Shown here: in pieces, positions 6,092 through 30,151 of the stretch
Numbering within the stretch: the first letter of the stretch is position 1
Layout: every line of letters starts with the position of its first letter
From: Phyllobacteriaceae bacterium
GTDB taxonomy: Bacteria > Pseudomonadota > Alphaproteobacteria > Rhizobiales > Rhizobiaceae
Length of the DNA stretch: 35,157 nt
Direction: 5' to 3'
Assembly (NCBI GenBank): GCA_023954255.1
Contig: JAMLIH010000029.1
Coordinates: forward strand, 1 to 35,157
Translations under genes and position numbers: made by a program
Notes under the pieces: generated by a model
Databases searched by the model: none
What the model was told of the DNA's origin: nothing
What the model saw: only the letters and a program-made list of their open reading frames with translations

Positions 6092-6706
6092 TCAATCGAA
6101 GGCTGTCGAAGGCCGTTGGCCGATGCGCTCAAACCAGGCTTTCAGATTGCCATGCGCCTCGTCCATCGCAATGCGCGCAGGCTTCATGAACTGACAGGCA
6201 ACGAAGGCGGAGATGTCGGCAATCGTGAAACGGTCGCCGGCAATGTACTCTCGGCTGGCCAGTTCCCGGTCGAGAATGCCCATGAAGCGGGCAGCCCTTT
6301 CCTGGTTGATCCTGCCCCACTCGGCAATCTGCACCGGCTCGATCTTACTGGCACCGGGATGCAGATGACGGAAGCTGAAGGCCACCGGCATCATGAAATT
6401 GAGCTCCACCCGCCGCTGCCACATCTCGATCTGCGCCTTTTCCAGCGGCGTGCGCCCCATGAGATTGGGCTCCGGCACTGTCTCCTCGAAATAGCGGCAG
6501 ATCGCGACGGTCTCCGCAAGAAAGGTTTCGTCGTCGAGTTCGAGTACCGGCAGGCCCTGCATCGGGTTCATCCGGGTAAAGGCTTCCGACTTCTGTTCCA
6601 GCGCGTTGATGTCGTATTGCACGCGCTCGATCTCGATGCCCTTCTCCTTGAGAAATATCTGAACCCTGCGGGGATTGGGCGCCCGCCCGCCATCATGCAA
6701 CCGCAT
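6092..6706 (-). CDS. Glutathione S-transferase family protein
   Basis: The 204-residue protein has an N-terminal thioredoxin-like domain (residues 1-75: MRLHDGGRAPNPRRVQIFL, MNPMQGLPVLELDDETFLAETVAICRY) and an all-helical C-terminal domain with REYIAGDRFTIADISAF, the conserved GST N-capping box. It is a cytosolic enzyme that conjugates glutathione to electrophiles, or a related thiol transferase. The start at 6706 has GGAGAG eight bases upstream, and that site overlaps the stop codon of the thermonuclease gene, so the two are likely translated in tandem. An in-frame extension to 6748 lies inside the upstream gene and is not used. Substrate not predictable. Confidence 0.92.
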   Translation of the reverse strand: MRLHDGGRAPNPRRVQIFLKEKGIEIERVQYDINALEQKSEAFTRMNPMQGLPVLELDDETFLAETVAICRYFEETVPEPNLMGRTPLEKAQIEMWQRRVELNFMMPVAFSFRHLHPGASKIEPVQIAEWGRINQERAARFMGILDRELASREYIAGDRFTIADISAFVACQFMKPARIAMDEAHGNLKAWFERIGQRPSTAFD

Positions 6707-6711
6707 CGCTT

Positions 6712-7458
6712 CTACTCTCCAAACCAGTTCGTCACCGACCGCAACCACAACCGGCCGCGATTGACAAGGCTGCTGGCGAGGCCGGCGGCTGAACTGCCGC
6801 CAGGATCGGCCTCCTCCGCCCGGCCATGCAACTCACGCCAGTCGCGCGGGCGGTCGAACTCGCCGGCCCAGATGCCGCTGCCATTCTGGCGGGCAAGGCG
6901 CTCCTCGGCCTCGTAGTCACCGAACGATACCGCCCATCCCTCCAGCACCATCTGCCGGTTGATATCGGTTCCGCCCTTCCTGCAGACCACCAGCAGGCGA
7001 TCGAACTTGTCGATTTCGCCGCCACTGCAGGCGATCCCTCCCTGGCGGACGAACCGGCGCAATTGCTGCGCAGCTTCCCGTCCGCAGGGCCAGATGGTAC
7101 CGTTTCTGCGGCAGGTCTGGGAATATTCCGGCGCATCAATGCCCTGAAGCCGGTAGCGTTGGCTGCCCAGTTCCAGACTGTCCCCGTCAAGCACCCGGAA
7201 TGCGCCGCGCACCTCCTGTTCGCCCAGCCGGGCAAACCAGGCAGCGCCTATTGCCACCATCAGCATGAGGCTGGCAGCGGCAAAATAGTCGGCAATCCTG
7301 CGCAACCGGCGCCGCCACACGGGAACGCCGTTGTAAACCCCGCGCCGCCCGCGCCTGCTGCTGCCGTCACGATTGCCGGAAAAAGCCAAGAAATCCCCGC
7401 TTTCGAGCCTCGCCGAAGAGGCTCTGCCTGAACCAACTCTAAACAGGATATTAACCAT
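6712..7458 (-). CDS. Membrane-anchored thermonuclease family protein
   Basis: The 248-residue protein has a basic N-terminal region, one membrane segment at about residues 57-76 and a staphylococcal-nuclease-like domain from about 85 to 205. Catalytic features are visible: Asp91-Gly-Asp93, RYRLQGIDAPE (Arg103, Asp108, Glu111), GREA and DKFDR (Arg154). These match the calcium-binding and arginine residues of SNase. It should cut DNA or RNA outside the cytoplasmic membrane if the N-terminus is inside. The C-terminal 40 residues are not conserved in the family as far as I can tell. The start has only a moderate ribosome binding site. It heads a small minus-strand run with the GST and uracil glycosylase genes. 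Confidence 0.85.
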   Translation of the reverse strand: MVNILFRVGSGRASSARLESGDFLAFSGNRDGSSRRGRRGVYNGVPVWRRRLRRIADYFAAASLMLMVAIGAAWFARLGEQEVRGAFRVLDGDSLELGSQRYRLQGIDAPEYSQTCRRNGTIWPCGREAAQQLRRFVRQGGIACSGGEIDKFDRLLVVCRKGGTDINRQMVLEGWAVSFGDYEAEERLARQNGSGIWAGEFDRPRDWRELHGRAEEADPGGSSAAGLASSLVNRGRLWLRSVTNWFGE

Positions 7459-7618
7459 TCCTTTCTAGGTTTTCCTAACAGTCAGCCAGTGCGCCCTTCA
7501 AACCCTTTTCCCTGGCACGGGAAAGCGGCGATTTGGGCGCCTAGGCTGTGGCAAAGGCTGGGTTATCCCGACTTTCGGCAAACGGAAGGATGATCCAGTC
7601 GGTTGATTTTGTTCGTGG

Positions 7619-7651
7619 ATTCAGGGTTTTCGGCTTTGCAGAATCCTGAAT
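7619..7651. promoter_or_regulatory. Inverted repeat upstream of the sensor kinase
   Basis: The arms ATTCAGG (7619-7625) and CCTGAAT (7645-7651) flank 19 bp. An overlapping pair GGATTC/GAATCC is present in the same stretch. It lies 38 to 70 bp in front of the kinase ATG in a 230-bp gap between divergent genes and may be an operator or a leader hairpin. No named motif is recognised. Confidence 0.3.
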
Positions 7652-7688
7652 TGGCCCAACGCCATTCGATGCAGGCCGGAATCAGGGC

Positions 7689-9242
7689 ATGAGCCAGAGG
7701 CAGTCACAATCCACCGACAAGATCATTGTCGACCGCACAAAGCGCCGCTCCGCCTCCGGCAAGATGATCAGCGAGGCGCGCAAATACGCGTCTTCCAGCA
7801 TGCACCGTCCCGTCAAGTACGAGGTCGAGCGGCTGCATTCCTATGCCGAGAACCACGTCAACGCCAAGCTCGCCCTGCCGCTTTTCGTCATGATCATCGC
7901 CGTGGTCTCGACCCAGTGGGTCGGCGCCATGCTCGCTGCCTACTGGGCGGCAATCGTCATCCTGTCCTATGGCGTCCTGTTCGCCGTTTCCAGCCGCTAC
8001 CTGCAGACGGATGGCGACGAGAAGGACCTGCCGAAATGGCGCCGCCGCTTCATGGGCGCGCAACTGCTCGTCGCCTTCGCCTGGTCGATTTTCGCCTTCT
8101 ATCACTGTGCCAGCTGCAACATCGCCGACACCTTCCTGATCATCCAGTTCTCCGCCATCCTGGTGTTCCAGGCGGTTACGATGATGCTGTCGCACAGTTT
8201 CGGCGCCAATCTGCTGATGACCTCCGCGCCGCCGACGATCGTGCTGGCACTGCGCCTGATCCTGACCTTTCAGCCGGCCCCGCTTGTCATGGGCGGCATC
8301 CTGATCGGCTCGCAGGTGTTCTTCTACTTCGTCGCCAACCGCTTCCGCATCTCGATCCTGTCCGCCCTCGCCCACCACCATGAGCGCGAGAACCTGATCG
8401 CCGAGCTTGAAACCGCCAAGTCGATGTCGGAGGAAGCGCGCCGCCGCGCCGAAGAGGCAAACCTCGCCAAGTCGCGGTTTCTGGCCACCATGAGCCATGA
8501 ACTGCGCACGCCGCTCAATGCCATTCTCGGCTTTTCCGAGGTCATGCAGGGCGAGGTTCTGGGACCTCTCGGCAACGATACCTACAAGGGCTACATCTCC
8601 GACATTCACGCCTCCGGCACCCATCTGCTCAAGGTGATCAACGAAATCCTCGATCTTTCGCGCATCGAGGCCGGTCGCTACGAGCTCAAGGAGGAAGCGA
8701 TCAAGCTTGCCCACATCATCGAGGAGGCAAACCAGATGGTGGCGCTCAAGGCGCGCACCAAGGGTGTGGAGATATCCCTTCAGGTAGAGGAAAACCTCCC
8801 GCTGATCTGGGCCGATGAGAAGGCGGTTCGCCAGATCGCGCTCAACCTGTTGTCAAACGCGCTGAAGTTCACCCCGACCGGCGGCAAGATCACCGTCACC
8901 GTCGGCTGGACCAGCCTTGGCGGCCAGTATTTCTCGGTACGCGATACCGGTCCCGGCATTCCCGAAGAGGAAATCCCCGTCGTGCTTTCCTCCTTCGGCC
9001 AGGGTTCGATCGCCATCAAGAGTGCCGAACAGGGCACTGGTCTCGGCCTGCCCATCGTCCAGGCGCTGATGCACATGCATGAGGGCAGGTTCGACCTCAA
9101 ATCGGTGTTGCGCGAAGGTACGGTAGTGACCGCCAGCTTCCCGCGCTCACGCGTGCTGGAAATCATGGAAAAAACCGAAAATCTCGGTCATGAGCGCCAG
9201 CGCAAGGGCGGCCTGTACGCGGCCTCCAAAGCCGCCTCCTGA
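7689..9242 (+). CDS. Membrane sensor histidine kinase, PdhS/PleC-like
   Basis: The 517-residue protein has about six membrane helices between residues 60 and 218, a short coiled coil (230-262), a HisKA dimerisation domain and a HATPase domain. The H-box FLATMSHELRTPLNAILGFSEVM contains His270, the phosphorylation site. The N-box (ALNLLSNALKF), DTGPGIP and GTGLGLPIVQALM follow. The H-box and the stretch YISDIHASGTHLLKVINEILDLSRIEAG are typical of alphaproteobacterial kinases related to PleC, DivJ and PdhS, which act on DivK in cell-cycle control. Membership of that group is inferred from motif similarity. No response regulator gene is adjacent, so it is an orphan kinase. The ATG at 7689 has a weak ribosome binding site. 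Confidence 0.88.
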   Translation: MSQRQSQSTDKIIVDRTKRRSASGKMISEARKYASSSMHRPVKYEVERLHSYAENHVNAKLALPLFVMIIAVVSTQWVGAMLAAYWAAIVILSYGVLFAVSSRYLQTDGDEKDLPKWRRRFMGAQLLVAFAWSIFAFYHCASCNIADTFLIIQFSAILVFQAVTMMLSHSFGANLLMTSAPPTIVLALRLILTFQPAPLVMGGILIGSQVFFYFVANRFRISILSALAHHHERENLIAELETAKSMSEEARRRAEEANLAKSRFLATMSHELRTPLNAILGFSEVMQGEVLGPLGNDTYKGYISDIHASGTHLLKVINEILDLSRIEAGRYELKEEAIKLAHIIEEANQMVALKARTKGVEISLQVEENLPLIWADEKAVRQIALNLLSNALKFTPTGGKITVTVGWTSLGGQYFSVRDTGPGIPEEEIPVVLSSFGQGSIAIKSAEQGTGLGLPIVQALMHMHEGRFDLKSVLREGTVVTASFPRSRVLEIMEKTENLGHERQRKGGLYAASKAAS

Positions 9243-14829: not shown

Positions 14830-15756
14830 TCAGAACCCCACCCGGTCGCCGCCCTTGAGATTCAACCGTTCCCGTGCCTCCTGCGGCGTGGCAATCTCGA
14901 AGCCGAGCCGCTCCACCATGTCGCGGGCAATTCTGACTTGTTCCGCATTGCTCTCAGCCAGTCTTCCCTTGCCGGCCCAAAGCGAATCCTCAAGCCCTAC
15001 CCTTAGATTGCCGCCCATCAGCACCGATTGCATGGCGACCGGCATCTGGTTGCGGCCTGCTCCCAGAACCGACCAGACATAGTCACTGCCGAACAGCCGG
15101 TCGGCCGTTCGCTTCATGTGGATGACATCCTCGGGATGGGCGCCGATGCCGCCAAGGATGCCGAACACCGACTGGATGAAGAAGGGCGGCTTGATCAGCC
15201 CGCGGTCGACGAAATGGGCACAGGTATACAGATGGCCGATATCGTAGCATTCGACCTCGAAGCGGGTGCCGTTTTCGGCACACGTGGTCAGGATGGTCTC
15301 GATGTCGGCGAAGGTGTTCTTGAATATCCGGTCGCGCGATCCTTCCAGATAGTCTTTCTCCCAGGCATGTTTGAGCGACTTGAAACGGTCTAGCATCGGA
15401 TAAAGGCCGAAATTCATCGAACCCATGTTGAGCGAGGCCACCTCCGGCTTGAACTGCACCGCAGGCAGCAAGCGCTCCTCGATGGTCATGGTCGCCGCAC
15501 CGCCCGTCGTAATGTTCATGACGCAGTCCGAGCGCTGCTTGATCGCCTGAAGAATGGGCTCGAAACGCTCCGGGCTCTGGGTCGGCGCGCCGTTGTCCGG
15601 GTCGCGGGCATGCAGATGCACGACCGCAGCGCCCGCCTCGGCGGCACCAACCGCCGCATCGGCGATTTCCTGCGCCGTGACCGGCAGGTGCGGCGACATC
15701 GATGGCGTGTGGATCGAGCCGGTAACGGCGCAGGTAATGATGATCTTGTTTGTCAA
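14830..15756 (-). CDS. Beta-keto acid cleavage enzyme (BKACE, DUF849)
   Basis: The 308-residue protein belongs to the family of 3-keto-5-aminohexanoate cleavage enzyme (Kce). These zinc enzymes condense a beta-keto acid with acetyl-CoA and release acetoacetate plus a new CoA ester. Zinc ligands are visible as His47 and His49 in VVHLHARDPDNG and Glu256 in NLRVGLEDSLW. The start is a TTG at 15756, with GGAG ten bases upstream, and the protein length then fits the family. The frame is open further upstream to 17091, but that part is antisense-frame noise inside the DctM gene. It sits 17 bp behind DctM. Its presence suggests that the TRAP substrate is broken down through a beta-keto acid. Confidence 0.93.
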   Translation of the reverse strand: MTNKIIITCAVTGSIHTPSMSPHLPVTAQEIADAAVGAAEAGAAVVHLHARDPDNGAPTQSPERFEPILQAIKQRSDCVMNITTGGAATMTIEERLLPAVQFKPEVASLNMGSMNFGLYPMLDRFKSLKHAWEKDYLEGSRDRIFKNTFADIETILTTCAENGTRFEVECYDIGHLYTCAHFVDRGLIKPPFFIQSVFGILGGIGAHPEDVIHMKRTADRLFGSDYVWSVLGAGRNQMPVAMQSVLMGGNLRVGLEDSLWAGKGRLAESNAEQVRIARDMVERLGFEIATPQEARERLNLKGGDRVGF

Positions 15757-15773
15757 CTCGGGTTCACTCCGTT

Positions 15774-17054
15774 TCAGCGGATATCGGTAAACGAATGGGG
15801 AAGGAAAAGCGTGAACTGCGGCACGAAGGTCACGATTGCCAGCACCACGAGGCATATTCCGATCAGCGGCAATGCCTGGCGGATAACCTTGATCAGCGGC
15901 TCGCCGGATGTGGCCGATACGATGAACAACAATATTCCCACTGGTGGCGTTGCGAGACCAATGACCACGTTGAGGACGGCCATCGCACCGAACTGTACCG
16001 GGTCCATCTGAACGATTGCCGCAATCTTCACCAGGATCGGCATGGTCAGGATGAGGATTGAAATCGGCTCCAGGAACATGCCCAGCACCAGCAGGAACAG
16101 GTTCAGCATGATCAGGATCAGGTAGCGGTTCTCGGTGATCGAAAGCACCAGGCTGGCGATCTGCTGCGGCACGCGTTCCAGCGTGAAGACGAACGACACG
16201 ATCGCCGCCATCGATGTGATGAACAGGATCGATGCACTGACCAGCGCGGAGGCAATCAGCGCCTTCCAGATATGTTTCGGCGTGAGGTCGCGATAGAGGA
16301 ACCCGATCAGCAGCGCATAGGCCACCGCCACTGCCGCCGCTTCGGTCGGCGTGAAGACACCGCCCTTGATGCCGACCACGATGATCAGCGGCAGGAAGAG
16401 CGCCGGCAGCGTGCGCCGTGTCGCCGAAAGCCGGTCCTTCCATGGCATCTTCTCGGTGATGGGAAATCCCTCCTTGCGCGCACGCCAGGAAGCGTAGACG
16501 AGCAGGCCGGCGCATAGCGCGATGCCCGGCACCACGCCGGCCAGAAACAGTTGCCCGATGGAAACGCCGGAAAGAACGCCATAGATGATCATCGCGATCG
16601 ATGGCGGGATGATCGGCCCCATGACGGAACTGACACCGACAAGCGCTGCCGCATAAGCCTTCGGCATGCCCTGCTTGCTCATGGTGGGGATCAGGATGGA
16701 ACCGAGCGCCGAGGCTTCCGCCGTGGCACTGCCCGAAATGCCGGCAAAAAAGCCCGACGAAAGCACCGTCACCGAGGACATGCCGCCCCGCCGGTGACCC
16801 ACCATCGCCCGTGCGAAGTGGACGATGCGGTCTGTCACGCCGCCGACATTCATCAGATTGCCCGCAAGCAGAAACAGCGGGATGGTCAGCAGCACGAACT
16901 GGTCGACACCGGCCATCATGCGCTGCGGCAGCGCCAGAACGAGACCGCCATTGCCGGATAGGAACAGATAGGCCGTCCCGCCGACACCGAGCGCGAGCGC
17001 AATCGGCACACCTGTCGCCAGCAGCAGTAGAAAAGTTACGAAAAAGCCGCCCAT
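15774..17054 (-). CDS. TRAP transporter large permease (DctM type)
   Basis: The 426-residue protein is the 12-helix ion-coupled permease of a TRAP system, which uses a sodium or proton gradient to import a carboxylate delivered by the binding protein. Typical stretches are GVPIALALGVGGTAYLF, VPLFLLAGNLMN-like TIPLFLLAGNLMNVGGVTDR, GISGSATAEASALGSILIP, GPIIPPSIAMIIYGVLSGVS and LNVVIGLATPPVGILLF. Length is normal. The ATG overlaps the stop codon of the small permease by one base (TGATG), so both are made in step. Confidence 0.95.
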   Translation of the reverse strand: MGGFFVTFLLLLATGVPIALALGVGGTAYLFLSGNGGLVLALPQRMMAGVDQFVLLTIPLFLLAGNLMNVGGVTDRIVHFARAMVGHRRGGMSSVTVLSSGFFAGISGSATAEASALGSILIPTMSKQGMPKAYAAALVGVSSVMGPIIPPSIAMIIYGVLSGVSIGQLFLAGVVPGIALCAGLLVYASWRARKEGFPITEKMPWKDRLSATRRTLPALFLPLIIVVGIKGGVFTPTEAAAVAVAYALLIGFLYRDLTPKHIWKALIASALVSASILFITSMAAIVSFVFTLERVPQQIASLVLSITENRYLILIMLNLFLLVLGMFLEPISILILTMPILVKIAAIVQMDPVQFGAMAVLNVVIGLATPPVGILLFIVSATSGEPLIKVIRQALPLIGICLVVLAIVTFVPQFTLFLPHSFTDIR

Positions 17055-17641
17055 CAGAGCTTTTCTCCCGCATCAGGTGCCGGCACGGCATCGGGCTGGT
17101 TTTTCAGGAAAGCCCGCACGGAACGGATGACATCGACGATGATGTGCATCGACAGAAGGAAACAGCCGATGGAAACCGAAACATAGACCAGCCTGACCGA
17201 AAGACCGGCAGGCCTGCCGAACAGGTTCTGGAAAATGAAATCCATGGCCGGAATGGTCTGGTTGGTAAAACGCGAGGCGTAATCCCAGCCATACCATGTC
17301 ATGATCGCCAGAAAGCAGAGCACCGGCAGCGACAGCACGATGCGCAATGCGTGCCGCCAGCGCGGCGAAAGCATCAGCGGAAACACGTCCAGTGCCACGA
17401 ACTGGCCGTTCTCATAGGCCAGTCCGAGCAGCAGGAAGGTCATCCAGATCAGCAGGTAGCGGCACAGTTCCTCCGCCCAGATAAGGGAGGAATCGAACCC
17501 GTACCGCGCGACGACTTGCGCGACCATGACCGTGACGATCAGCGCCATCAGGCAGCCGGCTGCCAGTTGCATGGAGAAGACATAGAACCGCCCCATCCTG
17601 GAAAGAAGCGACGGTTCGTCTTGCATTTCACGGTCAGACAT
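17054..17641 (-). CDS. TRAP transporter small permease (DctQ type)
   Basis: The 195-residue protein has four membrane helices at about 20-45, 55-75, 93-113 and 140-165, with WAEELCRYLLIWMTFLLLGLAYENGQFVALD as the family hallmark around helix 2. It forms the membrane complex with DctM. The ATG at 17641 is chosen because GACGAGGG precedes it and the protein then has the usual length; a longer frame to 17689 adds a Cys/Arg-rich stretch unlike the family. It lies 94 bp behind dctP, and that gap contains a strong palindrome. Confidence 0.92.
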   Translation of the reverse strand: MSDREMQDEPSLLSRMGRFYVFSMQLAAGCLMALIVTVMVAQVVARYGFDSSLIWAEELCRYLLIWMTFLLLGLAYENGQFVALDVFPLMLSPRWRHALRIVLSLPVLCFLAIMTWYGWDYASRFTNQTIPAMDFIFQNLFGRPAGLSVRLVYVSVSIGCFLLSMHIIVDVIRSVRAFLKNQPDAVPAPDAGEKL

Positions 17642-17735: not shown

Positions 17736-18731
17736 TCAGACGCTTCGCGCGACCTTCACGAATTCGCCGATAAGCGGTGACTTCTCGCTCCACTGGTCGA
17801 CGATCGGGGCCACCTTGGCCTGCATCTCCGCCAGATTCTCGAGTTCGAAAATCTCGACACCCTTCTTGCGCAACTCGTCCCGCCCAGTGTGATCCTGCTC
17901 CTTGGTGTATTCAAGGGTGGCGGCAACCGACCGGCGGCCGGCCTCACGCATTGCTTCCTGCAGTTCGCCCGAAAGACCGTCGAAATAGGCCTTGTTGACG
18001 GCCGTGGTCGAATGCCACGGATAGTGGCCGGTAAGAGTGAAGTTCTTGCCGACCTCCCACAGGTTTTCGCCGAGCATCGAGGAAACGTTGATTTCGACTG
18101 CGTCGATGGTTTTCGTCTCCAGCGCGCCATAGACCTCGCCATAGGGAAGACCGATGGGCGTCGTGCCGACTGCTTCCCAGATCGCCTTGTGCAGCGGCAC
18201 CGGCACGATGCGCGTCTTGAGGCCGGAGAACTCGGCAACCGTTTTCACCGGCGCGGCAACCGAAAGGAAGTGGCGCTGACCGATATCTGCCGTCGCTAGG
18301 CCAACCAGCCCGGCCGGCTGCAGATCGTCGTGAATCTTGTCGGCGATCTCGTTTGCCGCGATGGCGGCAAAGTGGTCGTAATCGCGGATCAGGAACGGAA
18401 GCTGATAGGCATCAAGACCGGGTCGGCCGGTCACGAGGGGGAACAGCACCCCGCTCGAATTGCTGATCTCGATGGTCCCTGCGGTCACCGACTCCAGGTT
18501 CTGCTTGTCGGTGCCCAACTGCCGGTTCGGGAAAATCTGCACGTCGAACGCGCCGGGCACGAGTTCCTCCAGCGCCTCGGCAAAGCTGGTCGCCATCCTG
18601 TGGCCCGGATGGATCTCGTTCGCCGCATGGGCAAAGCGCACCGACTGCGCGGCCGCCCTGGCGACCCAGGGCATTGCCAGCACGGCACTGCCGGCCAGGC
18701 CGGCCTTCATCAGGTTTCTTCTGGTAATCAT
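17736..18731 (-). CDS. TRAP transporter substrate-binding protein (DctP type)
   Basis: The 331-residue protein starts with MITRRNLMKAGLAGSAVLAMPWVARAA, a twin-arginine signal (TRRNLM) with cleavage after about residue 27. The mature part is a DctP-family binding protein: VRFAHAANEIHPGHRMATSFAEALEEL, then FPNRQLGTDKQNLESVTAGTIEI, FSGLKTRIVP and ALETKTIDAVEI. The arginine in 'LKTRIVP' is the usual carboxylate-binding residue of the family, which fits an organic-acid ligand. AAAAGGGAGG precedes the ATG. Gene order behind DUF6282 and before DctQM makes it part of the eight-gene operon. Confidence 0.94.
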   Translation of the reverse strand: MITRRNLMKAGLAGSAVLAMPWVARAAAQSVRFAHAANEIHPGHRMATSFAEALEELVPGAFDVQIFPNRQLGTDKQNLESVTAGTIEISNSSGVLFPLVTGRPGLDAYQLPFLIRDYDHFAAIAANEIADKIHDDLQPAGLVGLATADIGQRHFLSVAAPVKTVAEFSGLKTRIVPVPLHKAIWEAVGTTPIGLPYGEVYGALETKTIDAVEINVSSMLGENLWEVGKNFTLTGHYPWHSTTAVNKAYFDGLSGELQEAMREAGRRSVAATLEYTKEQDHTGRDELRKKGVEIFELENLAEMQAKVAPIVDQWSEKSPLIGEFVKVARSV

Positions 18732-19737: not shown

Positions 19738-20649
19738 TCAGGTCTGTTGCGGCATCGGGTAATCGTCGGCGTTGAGAACCCAGCCCTCTTTCTGTGAGAA
19801 ATCCATGCGCGGCGGACAGAAGATGTCGACGAGCTGGTTGTCGCCTGCTTCCATCCCGCGCGTGGTGTGGATGACCGGTGGCGGAATGACCGTCGAGGAG
19901 GGGGAGCCGCAGAACACATGCTGGTCCTCGCGCCAGTCGTTCATGTTGACGGTCCACGCCCATCTCAGGTGATGGGTGAACGAACCGTCGATCGCCAGCG
20001 AGCATTGCTCGAAATCGTCGTGGTGATGCGGCGACAGCTTGGTGATGTCGCGCGGGCCGACCTGCATATCGAGATAGTTGATCATGAAGGTGGTGCATCT
20101 GAAGATGCGCCCGAAACGCCCCGGTTCCTTCGGCACGTCGAGGGAATAGTGGCGGGTTTTCCAGCCGCCCACCGGCTCCGGCCAGGGCTCGAAGGGCGGG
20201 ATGTGTGTTCTCGCCACGTCGTAGGCGCCGGCATTGGAACAAGCTTCGGCAAGATCATCCGACTTGACGGTGAAAAGACGTACCAGCGTACCACCTCGCG
20301 GCATTTCGATCTTGCTGTCGCCGGGCGGCACGAAGGCGATGGAAAACCCCGGCACATCGACGGTTTCGCCACCGGCGCTGATCCTTGCCGGCTGATCCGC
20401 ATTTGGCAGCATGACGGCATATTCGTCAGGCTGACCTTTGCGCTCGAACACACCGCCCGGCGCAGCCTCGCCATAGGCCAGCACGAAGTTGTTGCCGCGA
20501 TGCAGCCAGACCTTGCCGCTTGCATCCTCAAGCTGTGGCGGTTGCTCGTAGAACAGCGCAACCTGAGGCTCGGCGATCAGCCCCGTCATGGCCGGTGCCG
20601 TGCCCTTGCTTGCTGCAAGGGCAGAACGCGGATCGGACTTGTCATACAT
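19738..20649 (-). CDS. Double-cupin-like protein of unknown function
   Basis: I do not recognise a named family. The 303-residue protein seems to have two cupin-like beta domains. The first, about 55-128, has YGEAAPGGVFERKGQPDEYAVMLP and IAFVPPGDSKIEMPRGG but few histidines. The second, about 185-280, has SPHHHDDFEQ (His208-210, Glu214) and IPPPVIHTTRG (His261), a plausible metal site. It could be an isomerase, epimerase, dioxygenase or sugar-acid-binding protein. The ATG at 20649 has GGAGG twelve bases upstream and follows the aldolase stop codon after 7 bp, so the genes are coupled. Its position fits an enzyme of the same pathway. Confidence 0.7.
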   Translation of the reverse strand: MYDKSDPRSALAASKGTAPAMTGLIAEPQVALFYEQPPQLEDASGKVWLHRGNNFVLAYGEAAPGGVFERKGQPDEYAVMLPNADQPARISAGGETVDVPGFSIAFVPPGDSKIEMPRGGTLVRLFTVKSDDLAEACSNAGAYDVARTHIPPFEPWPEPVGGWKTRHYSLDVPKEPGRFGRIFRCTTFMINYLDMQVGPRDITKLSPHHHDDFEQCSLAIDGSFTHHLRWAWTVNMNDWREDQHVFCGSPSSTVIPPPVIHTTRGMEAGDNQLVDIFCPPRMDFSQKEGWVLNADDYPMPQQT

Positions 20650-20656
20650 TGCCGTT

Positions 20657-21442
20657 CTAAACCTCCAATACGCTTGATGAAATTTCGGCAAGCGCGGCCT
20701 TGGCGGCCTGCCGCAGGAAACCCTGGTCAGAAGCCATCATGAAACCGGTGACACCCTTCGATGCCAGATCGCGTGCATCCTCCCGGGAGCCGGTCAGCGC
20801 GCAGACGGGCTTGCCGGCCTTTCTCGCTGCCGCAATGATCCTGTCGGTTGCATCCCTGACCGCATCCGCGGATGGCGATGCGGCGCCATAGGCGACCGTC
20901 AGATCGCCCCGCCCGATGAAGAATCCATCCAGCCCTTCTGTCGCAACGATCTCGTCGATGGTCTCCAGCGCATGGGGATCCTCGATCATGGCGATGACAC
21001 AGACATCACGGTCCTGGTTCGCCACGTGATCGGCGATGGACGCCTCACCGAATCCCCCTGCCCGCGTCGTGTTGGAGAAGCCGCGATGGCCGCCGCCATA
21101 TCGGCAGGCGGCCACCACGTCGCGTGCCTTCGCCGGGCTGTCCACATGCGGAACGAGAACACCGGCTGCCCCACAGTCGAGCACGCTCAGGATCGAAGAA
21201 GCAGAAGAATCGGGAACCCGCACGATGCCGGCCACCCCGCTGGCACGGCAGGCAAGCATCACGGCGTCGGTGCTCTCCCTGCCGAAGGGTGCATGCTCCT
21301 GGTCGACGACAACGAAGTTGTAGCCGGCAATTCCCAGTATCTCGGTGGCATGGGTCGTGGGCGTCTTCAGGAAGGTCCCGTAGAGGAACTCGCCACCTGC
21401 AAAGCGCTGTCTGAACGTAGCCGCACCAGCGGTCTCAGCCAT
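20657..21442 (-). CDS. HpcH/HpaI aldolase family protein
   Basis: The 261-residue protein is a class II pyruvate aldolase of the HpcH/HpaI type, which splits 2-keto-4-hydroxy acids into pyruvate and an aldehyde. Visible residues are Asp47-Gln-Glu49-His50 (VVVDQEHAPFGRE, His50 as base), Arg75 (GIVRVPD), Glu154 (AMIEDPHALE) and Asp180 (FIGRGDLTVAYG); the last two bind the metal. TRAGGFG is present as in 2-dehydro-3-deoxyglucarate aldolases. The start at 21442 has GGGAGGAAACC upstream. It is the first gene of the minus-strand operon, divergent from iclR and next to the operator-like repeat. The exact keto-acid is not predictable. Confidence 0.93.
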   Translation of the reverse strand: MAETAGAATFRQRFAGGEFLYGTFLKTPTTHATEILGIAGYNFVVVDQEHAPFGRESTDAVMLACRASGVAGIVRVPDSSASSILSVLDCGAAGVLVPHVDSPAKARDVVAACRYGGGHRGFSNTTRAGGFGEASIADHVANQDRDVCVIAMIEDPHALETIDEIVATEGLDGFFIGRGDLTVAYGAASPSADAVRDATDRIIAAARKAGKPVCALTGSREDARDLASKGVTGFMMASDQGFLRQAAKAALAEISSSVLEV

Positions 21443-23210: not shown

Positions 23211-24710
23211 CTAATGGACGGCGGCATACATGATGTTTTCCTCGGTCGCCTCGTCGCCGCTGAATTCCTCGACGATACGCCCCTTGCGGGCAACGAGTAT
23301 CCGGTCCGACATGTTGAGGATTTCCGGCAAATAGGAAGAAATCATCACGACGGCGAGGCCCTGGTCGGCCAGCCGGTTTATCACCGCATGGATTTCGGCA
23401 ATCGCCCCGACATCGACGCCCCGGGTAGGCTCGTCGAAGATGATCAACTGCGGGTCCTGCACCAGCGCCTTGGCGATGACCACCTTCTGCTGGTTGCCGC
23501 CGGACAGTTCGATCACCGGAACATCGGAGGAAATCGCGCGGATGTTGAGCGACTTCGTCCAGTGCTCGGCGAGATCGCGCGCCTCCGATCCGCGCAGGAT
23601 GACCGACTTGTCGGAGGGCGAAGCCAGCTTTCCGATCTCGATTGATTCAGCAACCGACATCGTCTCGAAAATACCTTCCACCTTGCGGTCCTCGGTAACG
23701 TAGGCGATGCCGTCGCGCACCGAAGGCGCAGGCGTGCGGTAGCGCACCGACTTCGACCCCAGCCGCGTCACGCCGCCATGGAAGAAGTTGCGCTTGATCA
23801 CGCCGGAAACGATCTTCGCCGTTTCGGTACGCCCGGACCCGATCAGCCCGAAAATGCCGGTAACCTGGCCGGCATAGGCGGCAAAGGAGGTGTTGCGGAC
23901 CATCCGGCCCATCGACACGTTCTGCACGCTCAAAACGCGCTTGCCATAGGGGCGAACCCGGCGCTTGCCGTCCTCGCCGCCATAGAGTTCGCCGGAAAGG
24001 TCTCGCCCCACCATCGCGCTGATGATGCTGTCGCGGTCGAACTTGCCGGTCTCGTCGGTGATGACAAGCTTGCCGTCGCGCAGGATCGTGATCCGGTCGG
24101 AAATCGCAAGCGCCTCCTCCAGCGCATGCGAGATGAAGATGACGGAACAACCCCTTTCCTTCAGCCGCTCGATCAGTTCGAAGAAATGCTGCTTTTCCTC
24201 GGGCGTCAGCGTCGCCGTCGGCTCGTCGAAGATGATGATGCGGGCGTTCTTGCGAACGGCACGGGCGATCTCGACCATCTGCCGCTGGGCCGCTCCCAGC
24301 GAGGCGACATTCGCTGTCGGATCGACCGGGAAGTTGAGCGACTGAAGGAACTGCTGCGCCGCGATATACAGCGGGCGCAATCGGTTGAAGGCCTTCTCGT
24401 CGCCGAGATAGAGATTCTGCGCCACCGTCAGCGACGGCACCAGGCTCGTCTCCTGAAACACCATTGCAATGCCCTTGCGCAGCGCATCCGCCGGCGAGGA
24501 AAAGGACAGTTCCTCTCCGGCCAAGAGAATCTTTCCGCGGGTGATCGGCACCACGCCTGCCGCCATCTTCGTCAGCGTCGACTTGCCGGCACCATTCTCG
24601 CCGAGAAGGGCGTGAACCTCGCCTTCGGTGATGGAAAGCGAGACATCCTGAACGGCGGGAACGCCGTGATATTCCTTCGTGACCTCCCGGAATTCCAGCA
24701 ATGGCGTCAT
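23211..24710 (-). CDS. Ribose-type ABC transporter double ATP-binding protein
   Basis: The 499-residue protein has two fused nucleotide-binding domains, as in RbsA and MglA. The first has Walker A GENGAGKST (37-45), ASLGAAQRQMVEIAR as an atypical signature and IIIFDEPTATLTPEE. The second has the usual degenerate Walker A (GLIGSGRTE), an intact signature IELSGGNQQKVVIAKAL and LIIFDEPTRGVDVGA. It powers the importer formed by the two permeases upstream. The ATG at 24710 has GGGAGG upstream and overlaps the stop codon of the propeller gene by four bases (ATGA), so it is coupled to it. It is the last gene of the operon. Confidence 0.95.
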   Translation of the reverse strand: MTPLLEFREVTKEYHGVPAVQDVSLSITEGEVHALLGENGAGKSTLTKMAAGVVPITRGKILLAGEELSFSSPADALRKGIAMVFQETSLVPSLTVAQNLYLGDEKAFNRLRPLYIAAQQFLQSLNFPVDPTANVASLGAAQRQMVEIARAVRKNARIIIFDEPTATLTPEEKQHFFELIERLKERGCSVIFISHALEEALAISDRITILRDGKLVITDETGKFDRDSIISAMVGRDLSGELYGGEDGKRRVRPYGKRVLSVQNVSMGRMVRNTSFAAYAGQVTGIFGLIGSGRTETAKIVSGVIKRNFFHGGVTRLGSKSVRYRTPAPSVRDGIAYVTEDRKVEGIFETMSVAESIEIGKLASPSDKSVILRGSEARDLAEHWTKSLNIRAISSDVPVIELSGGNQQKVVIAKALVQDPQLIIFDEPTRGVDVGAIAEIHAVINRLADQGLAVVMISSYLPEILNMSDRILVARKGRIVEEFSGDEATEENIMYAAVH

Positions 24711-25819
24711 GCCGCGCCTCCCCGCTCCTGCTCCGCATCGGTAGCAACAACGACATCGTCTCCCCGGCAGGTAACGATCACACGGCCCTGATGTTCTAGG
24801 CAACTGGTTACCCCGTGACGATGGCCGTCGGCGCGGCTGTGCAACGAAGCAACCGGCATCAGGTCCAGGCCAAGGCGGACGGCAAGGCCGTAGGACCGGC
24901 TCGGTGCCCAGGGCTTGTGGACGCCGAGCGTCTTGACCGCACCGACCTGCATCGGTTCCTTGTAGGATTTGCCGGCCCTCAGCGCCGGGGCAATCCAGTA
25001 CTCTTCACCGATCATCTCCATCATGTGCCGGCGGAACAGGTCCTCGCGAAGTACGAACTCGACCAGTTGGCTGCGGGGAGCAAAGACCGACAGCCACGCG
25101 CCGTCCCTGCCGCGCGCCGAAAGCCTGCCCGGATAGCCGGGCAGATCGTCCAGAAGCACCCGGATAGTGTTGGGCTTGTCGGCAGAGATCGCAATCAGAC
25201 GGTGCCGCCAGGCTTCCGATATGACAACGCTTCCCTCGGTGCACAGCACGCCGCTGGGATAGCGCAGGTTTCGGGCGATGCACTGCGCTTCGCCGCCACC
25301 GAGGGGAATCCGCCAGACCGACCCGCTCTCTCCCAGTTCGAGAAGATCGCGTTGCCAGTCACCCACGTCATGTTTTTCCGAACCGATGGAAACGATCAGC
25401 GTATCCGCACCGTCGAAGGCCATGCTGGTGACTGCGGCAAGCTGCTTGGGGCCGATACCGGCAAGCATCGTCCCGTCATGGGCACCGCCGGAAACGGCAA
25501 TTCCCTTGCCCTTCAGGGCTATTGCCAGTCCGCCATCAGGCGCCGCAGCCAGGGCAAGAACATCGCTTTCGAAGCGTTGCAGCGCCTTTGACCCGGCCCG
25601 CGGCCGGGAACGCGACTTGCCGCCGGACTTGCCAAGCTCGAAAAGCCCGTTGCCGCTTGAATACAAGACGCTTGCGCCACTCAGCACCAGATTGTCGGGC
25701 GCTTCGGCCTCGGCCAGCACTTCCGCATCGTCGAGCGCCGTGTTCGGCCTGAGCGCGCCATCCATTGAGGGAACGGTCGCCGTCTCTCGCGCCTTGAATA
25801 TCCAGTCGAACATTGCCAT
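24707..25819 (-). CDS. Stand-alone beta-propeller protein (SMP-30/strictosidine-synthase-like)
   Basis: The 370-residue protein has no signal peptide and resembles the propeller at the end of the fused permease. Matching stretches are NLRYPSGVLCTEGSVVISEAW (compare FPNGVCVEPNGKSLLFAESW) and DLPGYPGRLSARGRDGAWLS (compare NIIGYPDNINRASDGNYWMA). Positions that hold metal ligands in SMP-30-type enzymes are changed here: Ser189 for Asn, Gly231 for Asp, and no acidic residue where the fused copy has Asp495/496. It may thus bind a ligand or partner without catalysis. Its ATG overlaps the stop of the fusion gene by one base (TGATG) and its stop overlaps the ATPase start. The family link is by motif comparison and is moderately sure. 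Confidence 0.72.
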   Translation of the reverse strand: MAMFDWIFKARETATVPSMDGALRPNTALDDAEVLAEAEAPDNLVLSGASVLYSSGNGLFELGKSGGKSRSRPRAGSKALQRFESDVLALAAAPDGGLAIALKGKGIAVSGGAHDGTMLAGIGPKQLAAVTSMAFDGADTLIVSIGSEKHDVGDWQRDLLELGESGSVWRIPLGGGEAQCIARNLRYPSGVLCTEGSVVISEAWRHRLIAISADKPNTIRVLLDDLPGYPGRLSARGRDGAWLSVFAPRSQLVEFVLREDLFRRHMMEMIGEEYWIAPALRAGKSYKEPMQVGAVKTLGVHKPWAPSRSYGLAVRLGLDLMPVASLHSRADGHRHGVTSCLEHQGRVIVTCRGDDVVVATDAEQERGGAA

Positions 25820-27978
25820 CACCGCTGCCCCCAATAGCTTGCCGGCCCCGTCCAGTCGGGATCGGCATCGGGCAGTCTGACCCGGCCGATACGGTTGTTG
25901 AGGATGCCGCCGAGATAAAGATAGCCCTTGTGTTCGCGCATCGAGGTGATCATCGGGTGGTTTTCCGCCGATCTGTCCCAAAGCGTTTCGAGGATTTTTC
26001 CCTCAGCGGTGAATTTCACCACACAACCCGTATTGATGTTCGGGTAGAGCCATTCGTCCGGCGCTACCTCCAGTGCCATGCGGCGGCGCACCGAAGGCAT
26101 GCGCAGGGCGAGGTCGAGCGCCGGCGAGCGCACGCCCATGATGGCCATCCAGTAATTGCCGTCCGAGGCCCGGTTGATGTTGTCGGGATAGCCGATGATG
26201 TTTTCCAGCACCGGTTCGATCTGGCCCGCCTTGTCGCCATCGAACCAGTAACGGCTGATGCGGCAGGCCCAGCTTTCGGCAAACAGCAGCGACTTGCCGT
26301 TCGGCTCGACACAGACACCGTTGGGAAACACCCGCTTGCGGACGATCGTTCTCGTCGAATTGTCGCGGGGATCGTAGCAGATCAGCCGGCCGTTGCCGCG
26401 CGATTCCAGCGCGTCGGACGGCCAGTTCTCCATGTCGTATCGAACCGTGGCCTCGCTGAAGAAAATCCGCCCGTCCGGCGCAATGTCCAGATCGTCGGCA
26501 AGGCGCATGCGTGAATCGTCGATGATCGAGAACGTCGTGCGGTTGGTCTGGTCGGTGGCCTTTTCGACCCGCCCGTCGGGATAGACCCTGTAGAGACCCA
26601 TGCCGCCGACACAGGTGTAGAGAACCCCTTCCCGGTCGAAGGCAAGGCCGAGCGGGTGTCCGCCGATATGGGCGAATACCTTCGGCGTTTTGTAGTCGGG
26701 GCCATCGAAGCGTATGATGTTGCCGAGCCTGTCGCCGCAATAGAGATTGTCATCGGCATCGAAGATGACATCCTCCGCCCCGTCCAGTTGGCTCAGGCCA
26801 ATCAGGTCCACATCTCGAAGCCGGTCGTTCATCGCATAGGGCGATGACGGGTCGTCGGGATCGGATGGCGCCGGAAGGCGGAAATAGGTTGGCGACATGT
26901 AGAGCCGCGACAGAATCTTGTCCTTGTTGCGGACAAAGCGGACATCGACCGCGATCGCGGTCAGAAGAACAAGCCCTAGAAAAAGCTGCCCGGAGCCGCT
27001 CTGCAGCCCCATCTGCACCACGCCGAGATTGATCAGCAGGACGATGATCGATCCCATCATCGCCTTGGCGACGGAACCGCGCCCGCCGCCCAGGCTGGTG
27101 CCGCCGACGATAACTGCCGTCAGGGCGAAGATTTCCATGCCGACACCCGGATAGGAGCCGCTATTGCCCAGACGCGCCGCATAGAGAAAGGCTGCAAGCC
27201 CGGCGAGTGCGCCGGAAACCACGTAGGTAAGGCAGATCGTGCGCCTCACTGCGATGCCCGTATTGAAGGCGGAGCGGCGAGAGCCGCCAACGGCCATGAT
27301 GTGCCAGCCCAGCCGTGTTCGCGAAAGAACCACATGGGTGATCGCGGCTATGACGATCAGCACCACCATTGAAAACGGAATGCCGAGAACATCGCCCTGG
27401 CCAACGAAATCCCAGATCGGGTTGTCATAGAAGCTCGCCGAAATCTGAACGGCAAATTTCAGCAGAAGAACGTCGACCAGCGCGCGCACGGTAATGAGCG
27501 TGACCAGCGTGGTCAGGAAGGCCCTGAGCCGGAAATAGCCGATCAGAATGCCATTGATCAGCCCGACGAAGGCGCAAAGGCAGACGACAATGGGCAGGAC
27601 AAGCAGTGGCGGCAGATCATAGATGCTCGTCAGCGCCAGGGCAGTCAGGTTGCCGAGCGCGAAAATCGACCCGACGCTCAGATCGACCCCGCCACCGATC
27701 ATGACGATCATCATCCCTATCGAAACGAGACCGAACTCGCCGAGCTGGCGGCCCATGTCGGAAAGGTTGGCGGCGGTAAAAAGCCCCGGCGCCAGGATCA
27801 TGAACAGGATGATGACAAACACCATCGAGGCAGCCGGCACCAGGCTGTCGGCCCATTGCTTCGACAGGATTTCCCCTACCATCTGGGTGGAGAAGCGCCG
27901 GTAACGCAACCGAGTCAGCCACTCAAACGGCAGATTGCCTTCGGATTGGCGGCGGTCGGCTTCGAAGTGTGTCCCCAT
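25819..27978 (-). CDS. ABC permease fused to a strictosidine-synthase/SMP-30-like beta-propeller
   Basis: The 719-residue protein has two parts in one open frame. Residues 45-350 form a ribose-type (RbsC-like) inner-membrane permease with MMIVMIGGGVDLSVGSIFAL, FNTGIAVRRTICLTYVVSGALAGLAA and IFALTAVIVGGTSLGGGRGS. After a polar linker (351-395), residues 396-705 form a propeller with GAEDVIFDADDNLYCGD, LADDLDIAPDGRIFFSEA, FPNGVCVEPNGKSLLFAE and IGYPDNINRASDGNYWMA. Glu402, Asp495/Asp496, Asn553 and Asp599 match the metal ligands of SMP-30 gluconolactonases. Because the C-terminus of such permeases is cytoplasmic, the propeller should sit at the inner mouth of the channel and could act on the incoming solute. 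The ATG at 27978 has a poor ribosome site; Met33 is an alternative. Confidence 0.88.
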   Translation of the reverse strand: MGTHFEADRRQSEGNLPFEWLTRLRYRRFSTQMVGEILSKQWADSLVPAASMVFVIILFMILAPGLFTAANLSDMGRQLGEFGLVSIGMMIVMIGGGVDLSVGSIFALGNLTALALTSIYDLPPLLVLPIVVCLCAFVGLINGILIGYFRLRAFLTTLVTLITVRALVDVLLLKFAVQISASFYDNPIWDFVGQGDVLGIPFSMVVLIVIAAITHVVLSRTRLGWHIMAVGGSRRSAFNTGIAVRRTICLTYVVSGALAGLAAFLYAARLGNSGSYPGVGMEIFALTAVIVGGTSLGGGRGSVAKAMMGSIIVLLINLGVVQMGLQSGSGQLFLGLVLLTAIAVDVRFVRNKDKILSRLYMSPTYFRLPAPSDPDDPSSPYAMNDRLRDVDLIGLSQLDGAEDVIFDADDNLYCGDRLGNIIRFDGPDYKTPKVFAHIGGHPLGLAFDREGVLYTCVGGMGLYRVYPDGRVEKATDQTNRTTFSIIDDSRMRLADDLDIAPDGRIFFSEATVRYDMENWPSDALESRGNGRLICYDPRDNSTRTIVRKRVFPNGVCVEPNGKSLLFAESWACRISRYWFDGDKAGQIEPVLENIIGYPDNINRASDGNYWMAIMGVRSPALDLALRMPSVRRRMALEVAPDEWLYPNINTGCVVKFTAEGKILETLWDRSAENHPMITSMREHKGYLYLGGILNNRIGRVRLPDADPDWTGPASYWGQR

Positions 27979-28062: not shown

Positions 28063-29124
28063 TTACTTGAAGTCGTCCATGGTCCAGCAGGAGCCCGGGC
28101 CGATATTGTCCTTGGTAAGGAACCTGCCACGCGTCGGCAGCGTGAACTTGGGAGCGTCCGGGGCCGGCGGATTCTGCAGGAAAATGCGGATCAGCGAGTT
28201 GATGTCCTGGGCCTGCTCGCGCACGTCATAGCTGAAATAGGCCGAATAGGTGCCATCCTCCAGCCGGTCGCATGCCGCCTCCTTGTTGCCGCCGCCGGAA
28301 GAAACAACGAAGACCTGGTCCTGAAGACCCGCTTCCTTCACGGCCGAACCGGCGCCGATGTCCATGCCGTCCCAGAAGCCGATGACGCCACAAAGGTCCG
28401 GATGCTGCTGAAGCACCGTCTTGGTGATCTCATTGGCCTTGCCGGCATCCCAGTTGGCCGATTGGTTGGAAACGACCTGTATTTCGGGATGCTTGGACAG
28501 AACCTCCGTCACGCCGCGGATTTGCGTCGCGCTGGCTGCCGAGGTCAGGATGCCCTGGATGATGGCGACCTTGCCGGAGCGGCCGGTGCCCTCGCCGCAC
28601 TTCTCGACGATGTACTCGGCCTCCTTCACGCCGTTCAGCTGCCACACCTCACCGATGTAGTAGGTTGGATAGGCCGAAGCGATGTTGACGGAGATGAAGT
28701 TGATGCCGGCTTCCGTGCCGCGCTTGAGCAGCTTGGCGTAGGACTGCAGGTCGGGGTTCTGCAGAACAATGATGTCCGGCTTCGAGTTGATCAGCTGCTC
28801 CATCGCCTGAACGCCGACATCGGTGTTCCAGTTCGGGTCGCGAACGACGATTTCGTAACCGAGTTCCTCCGCCTGGATCTTCATGCCGGCATACCAGCCC
28901 TGTGAAAGATCGTAGCTCATGGAGAACGGCACATAGCCGATTGTCTTGCCTTTCATCGCGGCGACATAGGGCTCGATGGTCGGGTCCGGTATGCCTTCGA
29001 TGTCGATGGCCTGTGCGGCGCCTGAATAGGCAAGCGATGCAAGGCCAAGCAGGCCGGCAGCCAGCAACGGCCTTGCCGAAAAGCGCCGTGCGCCTGTTCT
29101 TTTTGGGTATGCTGTCGTCTTCAT
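28063..29124 (-). CDS. Ribose-type ABC substrate-binding protein (Peripla_BP_4)
   Basis: The 353-residue protein has a signal peptide (about residues 1-39, LLAAGLLGLASLAYSGAAQA) and a two-lobed sugar-binding fold: KTIGYVPFSMSYDLSQGWYAGMKIQAEELGYEIVV, then AMEQLINSKPDIIVLQNPD, GKVAIIQG and ITKTVLQQHPDLCGVIGFWDGMDIGAGSAVKEAG. It delivers the solute to the permease pair. Ligands of this family include sugars, polyols and sugar-like acids or lactones; the propeller next to it would fit a lactone or sugar acid but this is inference. GGGAGGACATC precedes the ATG at 29124. It follows the first permease gene by 28 bp. Confidence 0.93.
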   Translation of the reverse strand: MKTTAYPKRTGARRFSARPLLAAGLLGLASLAYSGAAQAIDIEGIPDPTIEPYVAAMKGKTIGYVPFSMSYDLSQGWYAGMKIQAEELGYEIVVRDPNWNTDVGVQAMEQLINSKPDIIVLQNPDLQSYAKLLKRGTEAGINFISVNIASAYPTYYIGEVWQLNGVKEAEYIVEKCGEGTGRSGKVAIIQGILTSAASATQIRGVTEVLSKHPEIQVVSNQSANWDAGKANEITKTVLQQHPDLCGVIGFWDGMDIGAGSAVKEAGLQDQVFVVSSGGGNKEAACDRLEDGTYSAYFSYDVREQAQDINSLIRIFLQNPPAPDAPKFTLPTRGRFLTKDNIGPGSCWTMDDFK

Positions 29125-29152
29125 GATGTCCTCCCTTTTTGGACTGGTGATG

Positions 29153-30151
29153 CTAGATATCGCCCTGCTGGGATGTCTGTTCATCCCGCGGGTTGACGAT
29201 TTGATCGATGACGATTGCCGTCAGCAGGATCAGGCCCTTGATGGCGTTCTGTGTCGTGAACTGGATGTCCATGATGGTCATGCCGTTGAGAAACGTGCCG
29301 ATCAGAAGCGTGCCGACGACCACGTTCCGGATGCCGCCCTTGCCGCCGCTGAGACCGATCCCGCCAAGCACCACAACCAGAATGATCTCGTAAACGAGCA
29401 GGCTGTCGGTGATGCGGGTGTTCATGCTGTTGATGGCCGTTGCCTGAACAAGGCCGGCAATGAAGGCAATGAAGGCTGAGAGCACGAACTGGGCAACGAT
29501 CAGCGGCCGCACCGGCACGCCGGTGATGCGGGCAGCCGCACGGTTGTCGCCGGCGGCATAGGTAAAACGCCCGAACTTGGTATATTTCAGCAGCAGTCCG
29601 ACGACCGCCGCAATGACGGCGAACACGATCACCGGCATCGGAACACCGAACACCCGTCCCTTGCCCAGTTCCTCTATCACCCCGAGATTCGTCGGCAGAT
29701 AGACCGTATCCTGGCTGATCAGGACGAAGCGTCCGAAGCCGTAGATGCAGCCTGCCGTTGCAAGCGTCGAGAAAAGCGGCGGTATCTCGACATAGGCAAC
29801 CAAGAAACCGTTGATCAGCCCGACAAGGGCTACCGAGGCAAGGCCGATTGCCAGCGCTGCGGGAACCGGCATGCCACCGTTGATCAGTTGCAGCGTCCAG
29901 GCAACCGACATCGCCATCAGCGCGACGATCGACAGGTCAATGGCGCCGCCGATAACGATAACGCCCATGGCAACGCTCAGGATGCCGAGCACGGACACCG
30001 CCTGCAGCAGCAGCGCGATGTTGTTGGCATTCAGAAAGCCCGGAAGGAAAACGGAAAAGCCGGCAAACAACGCCACGAAGATCAGGAAGACGATCATCTC
30101 CTGCGTGCCCATCTTCCTGGATCTGAGCAGATTGAGCCCGATAGGCCTCAC
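29153..30151 (-). CDS. Ribose-type ABC transporter permease (RbsC-like)
   Basis: The 332-residue protein has about ten membrane helices and the family stretches VAMGVIVIGGAIDLSIVALMAM, LATAGCIYGFGRFVL, AAARITGVPVRPLIVAQFVLSA and EIILVVVLGGIGLSGGKGGIRNV. It is an ordinary permease without an extra domain and probably pairs with the fused permease. The start is a GTG at 30151 with GGGAGG eight bases upstream. It is the first gene of the five-gene operon. A 439-bp gap with a candidate operator separates it from the GntR gene. Confidence 0.92.
   Translation of the reverse strand: MRPIGLNLLRSRKMGTQEMIVFLIFVALFAGFSVFLPGFLNANNIALLLQAVSVLGILSVAMGVIVIGGAIDLSIVALMAMSVAWTLQLINGGMPVPAALAIGLASVALVGLINGFLVAYVEIPPLFSTLATAGCIYGFGRFVLISQDTVYLPTNLGVIEELGKGRVFGVPMPVIVFAVIAAVVGLLLKYTKFGRFTYAAGDNRAAARITGVPVRPLIVAQFVLSAFIAFIAGLVQATAINSMNTRITDSLLVYEIILVVVLGGIGLSGGKGGIRNVVVGTLLIGTFLNGMTIMDIQFTTQNAIKGLILLTAIVIDQIVNPRDEQTSQQGDI

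Follow-up and report, generated by a model that had tools for sequence, protein, structure and literature searches.

Does an ATP-binding cassette (ABC) importer carry its own enzyme at the inner end of its channel, and what would such an importer bring in? The question is raised by a single open frame of 719 codons in contig JAMLIH010000029.1 of a Phyllobacteriaceae bacterium (assembly GCA_023954255.1), of which the whole analyzed stretch of 35,157 nucleotides is called the window here. An earlier note, made from the sequence of the window, had described the frame as a sugar permease fused to a lactonase-like propeller with a cytoplasmic C-terminus. Our results bear out the fusion, its conservation, the predicted topology and the lactonase-like metal site, and do not support the sugar label; they also add what that reading had overlooked, namely a second propeller gene (SSL2) next to the fusion and a gene setting that points to coenzyme A (CoA)-linked acids and, in one subgroup, to mevalonate. 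With slightly less than even confidence, we favor an importer whose fused propeller opens a lactone or ester and whose SSL2 is a pseudoenzyme partner.

The fusion and its five-gene cassette

The fusion is composed of the following parts.

25819..27978, minus strand: P2::SSL fusion, 719 aa, RbsC-type permease (P2) and strictosidine-synthase-like (SSL) propeller
26938..27852, minus strand: membrane part of P2, residues 43-347, ten predicted helices (model, loop charges)
26824..26937, minus strand: K/R-rich linker behind the last P2 helix, residues 348-385
25822..26823, minus strand: SSL propeller of the fusion, residues 386-719
26775-26773 (E402), 26496-26494 (D495), 26322-26320 (N553) and 26184-26182 (D599), minus strand: SSL ligand positions

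In a sample of the order comprising 297 genomes (E<=1e-60, up to three places scored per genome), matches to the fusion were found in 36 genomes, the window's own included, at 46 places. Both domains were spanned at 43 of these, one of which has an internal stop (G087:C15, kept out of all alignments); the other three are two copies cut by contig ends (G176 and G151:C6) and one permease without the propeller (G220). Some genomes have several copies: the fused permeases number at least five in G959 and at least three each in G087 and G105. Fifteen plasmid records cover at least 80% of the fusion protein, and at least 544 relatives were confirmed in named genomes. The 79 loci kept from the latter belong mostly to Alphaproteobacteria, and also to Betaproteobacteria (Bordetella, Variovorax, Paraburkholderia), the gammaproteobacterium Alcanivorax and a metagenome-assembled genome (MAG) labeled Deltaproteobacteria; the fusion is also present on one Pantoea and one Paraburkholderia plasmid. 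When the permease of an unfused relative served as the query, 385 genomes of the class yielded 15 places, each in a frame of 710 aa or more, and 17 of the 18 places in 398 genomes of the phylum were frames of at least 707 aa matching the fusion, the eighteenth being the unfused locus L140. This wide recurrence of the fused frame rules out an assembly error or a missed stop, and the pattern of separate genes with a stop between them, which would point to such an error, was not found in the survey of homologs.

The propeller of the fusion scores higher with Str_synth than with SGL (Pfam), and the fold of the strictosidine-synthase-like (N6P) family is present in the fusion. Fold-match lists were filled by propellers, and a sequence comparison of the N-terminal part (353 aa) with solved chains gave no match. 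In plasmid records the fusion goes under the names "SMP-30/gluconolactonase/LRE family protein" or "ABC transporter permease", and SSL2 under "hypothetical protein" or "strictosidine synthase".

Four further genes complete the cassette in the window.

29153..30151, minus strand: P1, unfused RbsC-type permease, 332 aa, GTG start, BPD_transp_2 E 3e-29, position conserved
28063..29184, minus strand: SBP, periplasmic binding protein, 373 aa as listed, Peripla_BP_4 E 6e-45
24707..25822, minus strand: SSL2, second, separate SSL propeller without metal site, start GTG 25822 or ATG 25819
23211..24710, minus strand: ATPase with two ABC_tran stretches, ABC_tran E 9e-52

The listed ATG of SBP overlaps P1, and the true start may be an internal ATG about 20 codons further. 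The start of SSL2 overlaps the stop of the fusion, and the ATG of the ATPase at 24710 overlaps the stop of SSL2 (ATGA). The order P1-SBP-P2::SSL-SSL2-ATPase is complete and on one strand in 99 of 106 distinct cassettes (duplicates removed: L115 = L041, L119 = L043), and SSL2 starts with a 4-nt overlap with the fusion stop in 89 of 103. Six of the seven incomplete cassettes continue beyond a contig end (L045, L046, L065, L138) or the limit of the fetched flank (L058, L115). The seventh (L068, a Rhodobacteraceae MAG) has P2::SSL::SSL2 as one minus-strand frame of 1060 aa with SSL2 homology at 718-1052 (257 bits), and this natural triple fusion, present in one MAG, suggests a joint function of the two propellers. 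Cassette conservation and the triple fusion rule out a chance juxtaposition of the fusion and SSL2; the fusion served as query for all cassette loci, which are therefore silent on SSL2 occurring without it.

Two relatives are unfused. L139 has P1-SBP-P2-ATPase with a P2 free of the propeller, and L140 has P1, SBP, and then P2 joined to the double ATPase (850 aa, 6435-8984, minus strand). Neither SSL nor SSL2 was detected in these loci (phmmer, E 1e-4, 18 kb fetched), i.e. both propellers are absent together in both. The two nest among divergent fused rows with support 93, on long branches and with a distant outgroup, so that the unfused state may be either a joint loss or deeply ancestral.

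Membrane side and metal sites of the two propellers

Ten helices with both ends inside are predicted for P2 by the model and by loop charges. Over 92 rows the mean number of K+R is 4.47, 0.00, 1.95, 3.57 and 1.00 in the predicted inside loops and 4.46 in the C-terminal linker, and 0.03, 0.00, 0.11, 0.05 and 0.09 in the predicted outside loops; a hydrophobic N-terminal segment is found in none of the 103 SSL2 sequences. The C-terminus of the fusion is thus predicted to be cytoplasmic, as the earlier note had proposed from the family topology, and a periplasmic end was not predicted. A periplasmic propeller had been considered because an N-terminal membrane segment is present in 10 of the 11 nearest standalone SSLs (L141, L142, L150-L153, L158-L160 and L162, of which L141 and L150 are nearly identical in this segment; L161 is without it), and was ruled out by the loop charges and by the lack of such a segment in SSL2. 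The standalone proteins are probably anchored on the outer side of the membrane, and the fused propeller, predicted to lie inside, seems to have changed sides. Since tethering would then be old in the family, one may ask whether the fused propeller is a pathway enzyme merely held at the membrane, which acts on a cytoplasmic metabolite instead of the solute of the channel. We consider this improbable, as the propeller stays strictly with one permease of one transporter cassette and with SSL2 however the neighborhood varies, which suggests that it serves the transporter.

Comparison of the metal sites separates the two propellers sharply. Each of the four ligand positions (E402, D495 as D or N, N553 and D599), which had been proposed from the window alone, is intact in 90 of the 91 distinct fused SSLs, and the remaining sequence retains three. 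Among 89 distinct SSL2 sequences none is kept in 67, one in 20 and two in 2; D599 is replaced by G, A or S throughout the 89, and N600 by R in 83 of them. On these losses we rejected an active SSL2, and the retained positions of the fused SSL do not fit a strictosidine synthase proper, i.e. an enzyme of metal-independent condensation. Passages of PMC4215206 describe the great majority of SSL proteins as apparently keeping four metal ligands and as more likely hydrolases, with true strictosidine synthases as outliers in ligand retention. The fused propeller may accordingly be regarded as a candidate built-in hydrolase, perhaps a lactonase.

A 51-row tree places the fused SSLs in one group (support 99, starred) and the SSL2 sequences in another (100, starred), and the two together stand apart from the 11 standalone SSLs with a support of 94, which is not starred and not decisive. 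Duplication of SSL in situ is a plausible origin of SSL2 on this sequence evidence. Despite the loss of the metal site, SSL2 retains many invariant residues, and its best reading is that of a pseudoenzyme partner of the fused propeller. The same retention would be expected of a regulatory partner, and an alternative, which we judge rather unlikely, is that the propellers sense or gate from the cytoplasm: the fused propeller would bind substrate or product with its metal and switch the ATPase through SSL2, with no chemistry involved. The location of SSL2 between P2 and the ATPase, overlapping both in the window, agrees with such a role, and regulatory domains are known on ABC importers, usually on the ATPase according to PMC11466899. 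The near-complete conservation of the ligands in the fused SSLs speaks against it, given that four-ligand SSLs are mostly thought to be hydrolases in PMC4215206.

Binding-protein pocket and gene neighborhoods

As a sequence test for binding-site residues, on an alignment of low identity, we compared 103 distinct cassette SBPs with eight polar pocket residues of RbsB, one of them Asn64. No residue is kept in 98 of the SBPs and one in the other five, in comparison with five of eight in AlsB and YtfQ; Asn190 is replaced by Trp in all 103 and Gln235 by Tyr in 97. The other seven reference residues are listed as ligand sites in PMC3676853. The SBP sequence thus lacks the monosaccharide contacts of CUT2 importers. 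Solved binding proteins gave only remote matches (best 64-75 bits) as a clue to the substrate.

The database names imply a plain importer of sugars or sugar lactones with a gluconolactonase-like domain, which is the least probable of the readings that we weighed. The permeases, ATPase and SBP are nearest to models for ribose, arabinose, xylose and allose, and the Pantoea cassette lies near triose/tetrose-type genes and a D-arabinono-1,4-lactone oxidase. Against this, no cassette protein reaches the curated cut-off of any of the sugar models, the RbsB pocket is almost completely lost, and no sugar kinase or isomerase was found among the 20 commonest neighbor clusters scanned, in which several frames have no Pfam match. 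The "sugar" label is therefore doubtful, both for the cassette in general and for the permease that the earlier note had so named, whose gene neighborhood also speaks against it.

Neighbors were counted by homology to cluster representatives at 103 loci, in which the overlapping pair L041/L115 is still included. The commonest are short-chain dehydrogenases/reductases (SDR, 45 loci), enoyl-CoA hydratase (34), acyl-CoA synthetase (27), aldehyde dehydrogenase (ALDH, 25), CoA-transferase III (22), AraC (22), MmgE/PrpD (20), acyl-CoA dehydrogenase (20), LysR (18) and zinc-dependent alcohol dehydrogenase (Zn-ADH, 15), followed by 3-hydroxyisobutyrate dehydrogenase (HIBDH, 12), tripartite ATP-independent periplasmic (TRAP) transporters (12), hydroxymethylglutaryl-CoA (HMG-CoA) lyase (9) and HMG-CoA reductase (HMGR, 8). 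This setting, mostly enzymes of CoA and carboxylic acids, points to CoA-linked acids. The cassette of the window itself has HpcH/HpaI aldolase, a DUF6282 protein, a beta-keto acid cleavage enzyme domain, a TRAP binding protein, HIBDH and MmgE/PrpD nearby. The cleavage enzyme domain (window 14830-17091, frame residues 449-745) and the TRAP DctP binding protein (17736-18731, minus strand) lie downstream of the cassette, and a frame of 317 aa that separates the genes for DUF6282 and HpcH (19738-20691, minus strand) has no Pfam or NCBIfam match.

With 442 bits against a cut-off of 260, the neighboring HMGR belongs to the degradative enzymes. All eight loci that have it place it upstream of P1 and on the same strand; CoA-transferase III stands between reductase and P1 in seven, and HMG-CoA lyase is nearby in seven. 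On plasmid pShin-02 of Shinella sp. HZN7 (L147) the reductase overlaps P1 by one base, and L193 comprises the reductase (partial, at a contig end), P1-SBP-P2::SSL-SSL2-ATPase and the lyase within 7.9 kb. The sample of 297 genomes has degradative HMGR at 33 places in 32 genomes, three of them (one the partial L193) at most 6 kb from a cassette, in comparison with a chance expectation of about 0.02 within 10 kb (4.5 Mb per genome, assuming independence, which kinship partly violates). The 30 cassette-free loci have a TRAP transporter in 17, HMG-CoA lyase in 17, CoA-transferase III in 5 and an SSL gene in none; both of the two scanned loci with CoA-transferase have a Peripla_BP_6 binding protein. 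The genome of the window has such a locus on another contig (L175, G000:C129:47001-62000), with a TRAP permease about 4 kb from the degradative HMGR. TRAP transporters typically carry carboxylates. For the HMGR subgroup, the evidence points to mevalonate or mevalonolactone as the substrate.

Other sets of neighbors mark further subgroups with other likely substrates: acyl-CoA synthetase and an AraC regulator accompany the cassette in 19 of 89 tree rows (L044, L051, L052, L056, L057, L067 and others), and Zn-ADH with ALDH in 12. Neighborhood types are clustered on the subfamily tree (fasttree), none of them forming a single clade.

Proposed mechanism and relation to known systems

In the reading that we favor, SBP would deliver a small neutral non-sugar solute, most likely a hydroxy-carboxylic acid in lactone or ester form, to the P1/P2 pair, powered by one double ATPase as in a five-subunit RbsABC-like importer. 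The metal-dependent SSL at the inner channel mouth of P2 would open the arriving lactone or ester, and the resulting carboxylate, flowing back poorly, would be trapped inside and passed to soluble CoA enzymes. SSL2, the metal-less sister, would pair with the fused propeller, the ATPase or both, possibly for gating. In the HMGR subgroup the cassette would suit the lactone form, in place of the TRAP transporters that occur elsewhere without a propeller gene. A stricter version is possible but doubtful: an ABC equivalent of group translocation, with hydrolysis coupled to import, in which the propeller pair would form a cytoplasmic exit chamber that takes in the neutral lactone (mevalonolactone in the HMGR subgroup) and releases only the hydroxy-acid anion.

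Several observations weigh against the proposed lactone- or ester-opening importer. The conserved metal site could serve binding instead of catalysis. The neighbor counts refer to cassette loci only, and SDR and ALDH are common everywhere. HMGR accompanies only 8 of 103 loci, and 30 of its 33 places are without the cassette. Mevalonolactone reopens rapidly by itself in water, according to PMC13064465, so a lactonase may be needless in the HMGR subgroup. In addition to the genes near the Pantoea cassette, xylose genes lie near one Paracoccus cassette. Finally, of the eight RbsB pocket residues one is present in the unfused L139 and two in the unfused L140, and the unusual pocket is thus independent of the propellers.

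The cassette shares its permease, binding-protein and double-ATPase families with CUT2 importers (RbsABC/AraFGH-type), and the ten-helix topology fits them; it differs by the propeller on one permease, the adjoining second propeller gene and an SBP without sugar contacts. From N6P SSL proteins (rice TGW6 8kg3, strictosidine synthase, PON1, DFPase) the fused SSL differs in being joined to a permease and predicted cytoplasmic. RPA3624 and other SMP-30/gluconolactonase-like lactonases are separate soluble-type enzymes outside transporters, whereas the fused SSL, as said, is closer to Str_synth. Other degradative-HMGR mevalonate loci have the same reductase and often HMG-CoA lyase, and differ by the TRAP transporters and the lack of SSL genes counted above. 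The literature searched contains no description of the fusion or of the five-gene system, a coverage that leaves out most subscription journals, so that absence is unproven; the papers on mevalonate found there name no such transporter, and a search there for RPA3624 gave no match. The parts are known families, and the whole is a variant of CUT2-type ABC importers in which the sugar function is not borne out.

If the favored reading is true, this family would be an ABC importer in which a dedicated enzyme and a dedicated pseudoenzyme are permanent subunits, which would let one ask directly whether chemistry on the inner side can pull ABC import. It would correct many database names, such as "sugar ABC transporter", "SMP-30/gluconolactonase/LRE family protein" and "hypothetical protein", and would provide the first candidate substrate class for transporters that reach at least five copies in one genome.

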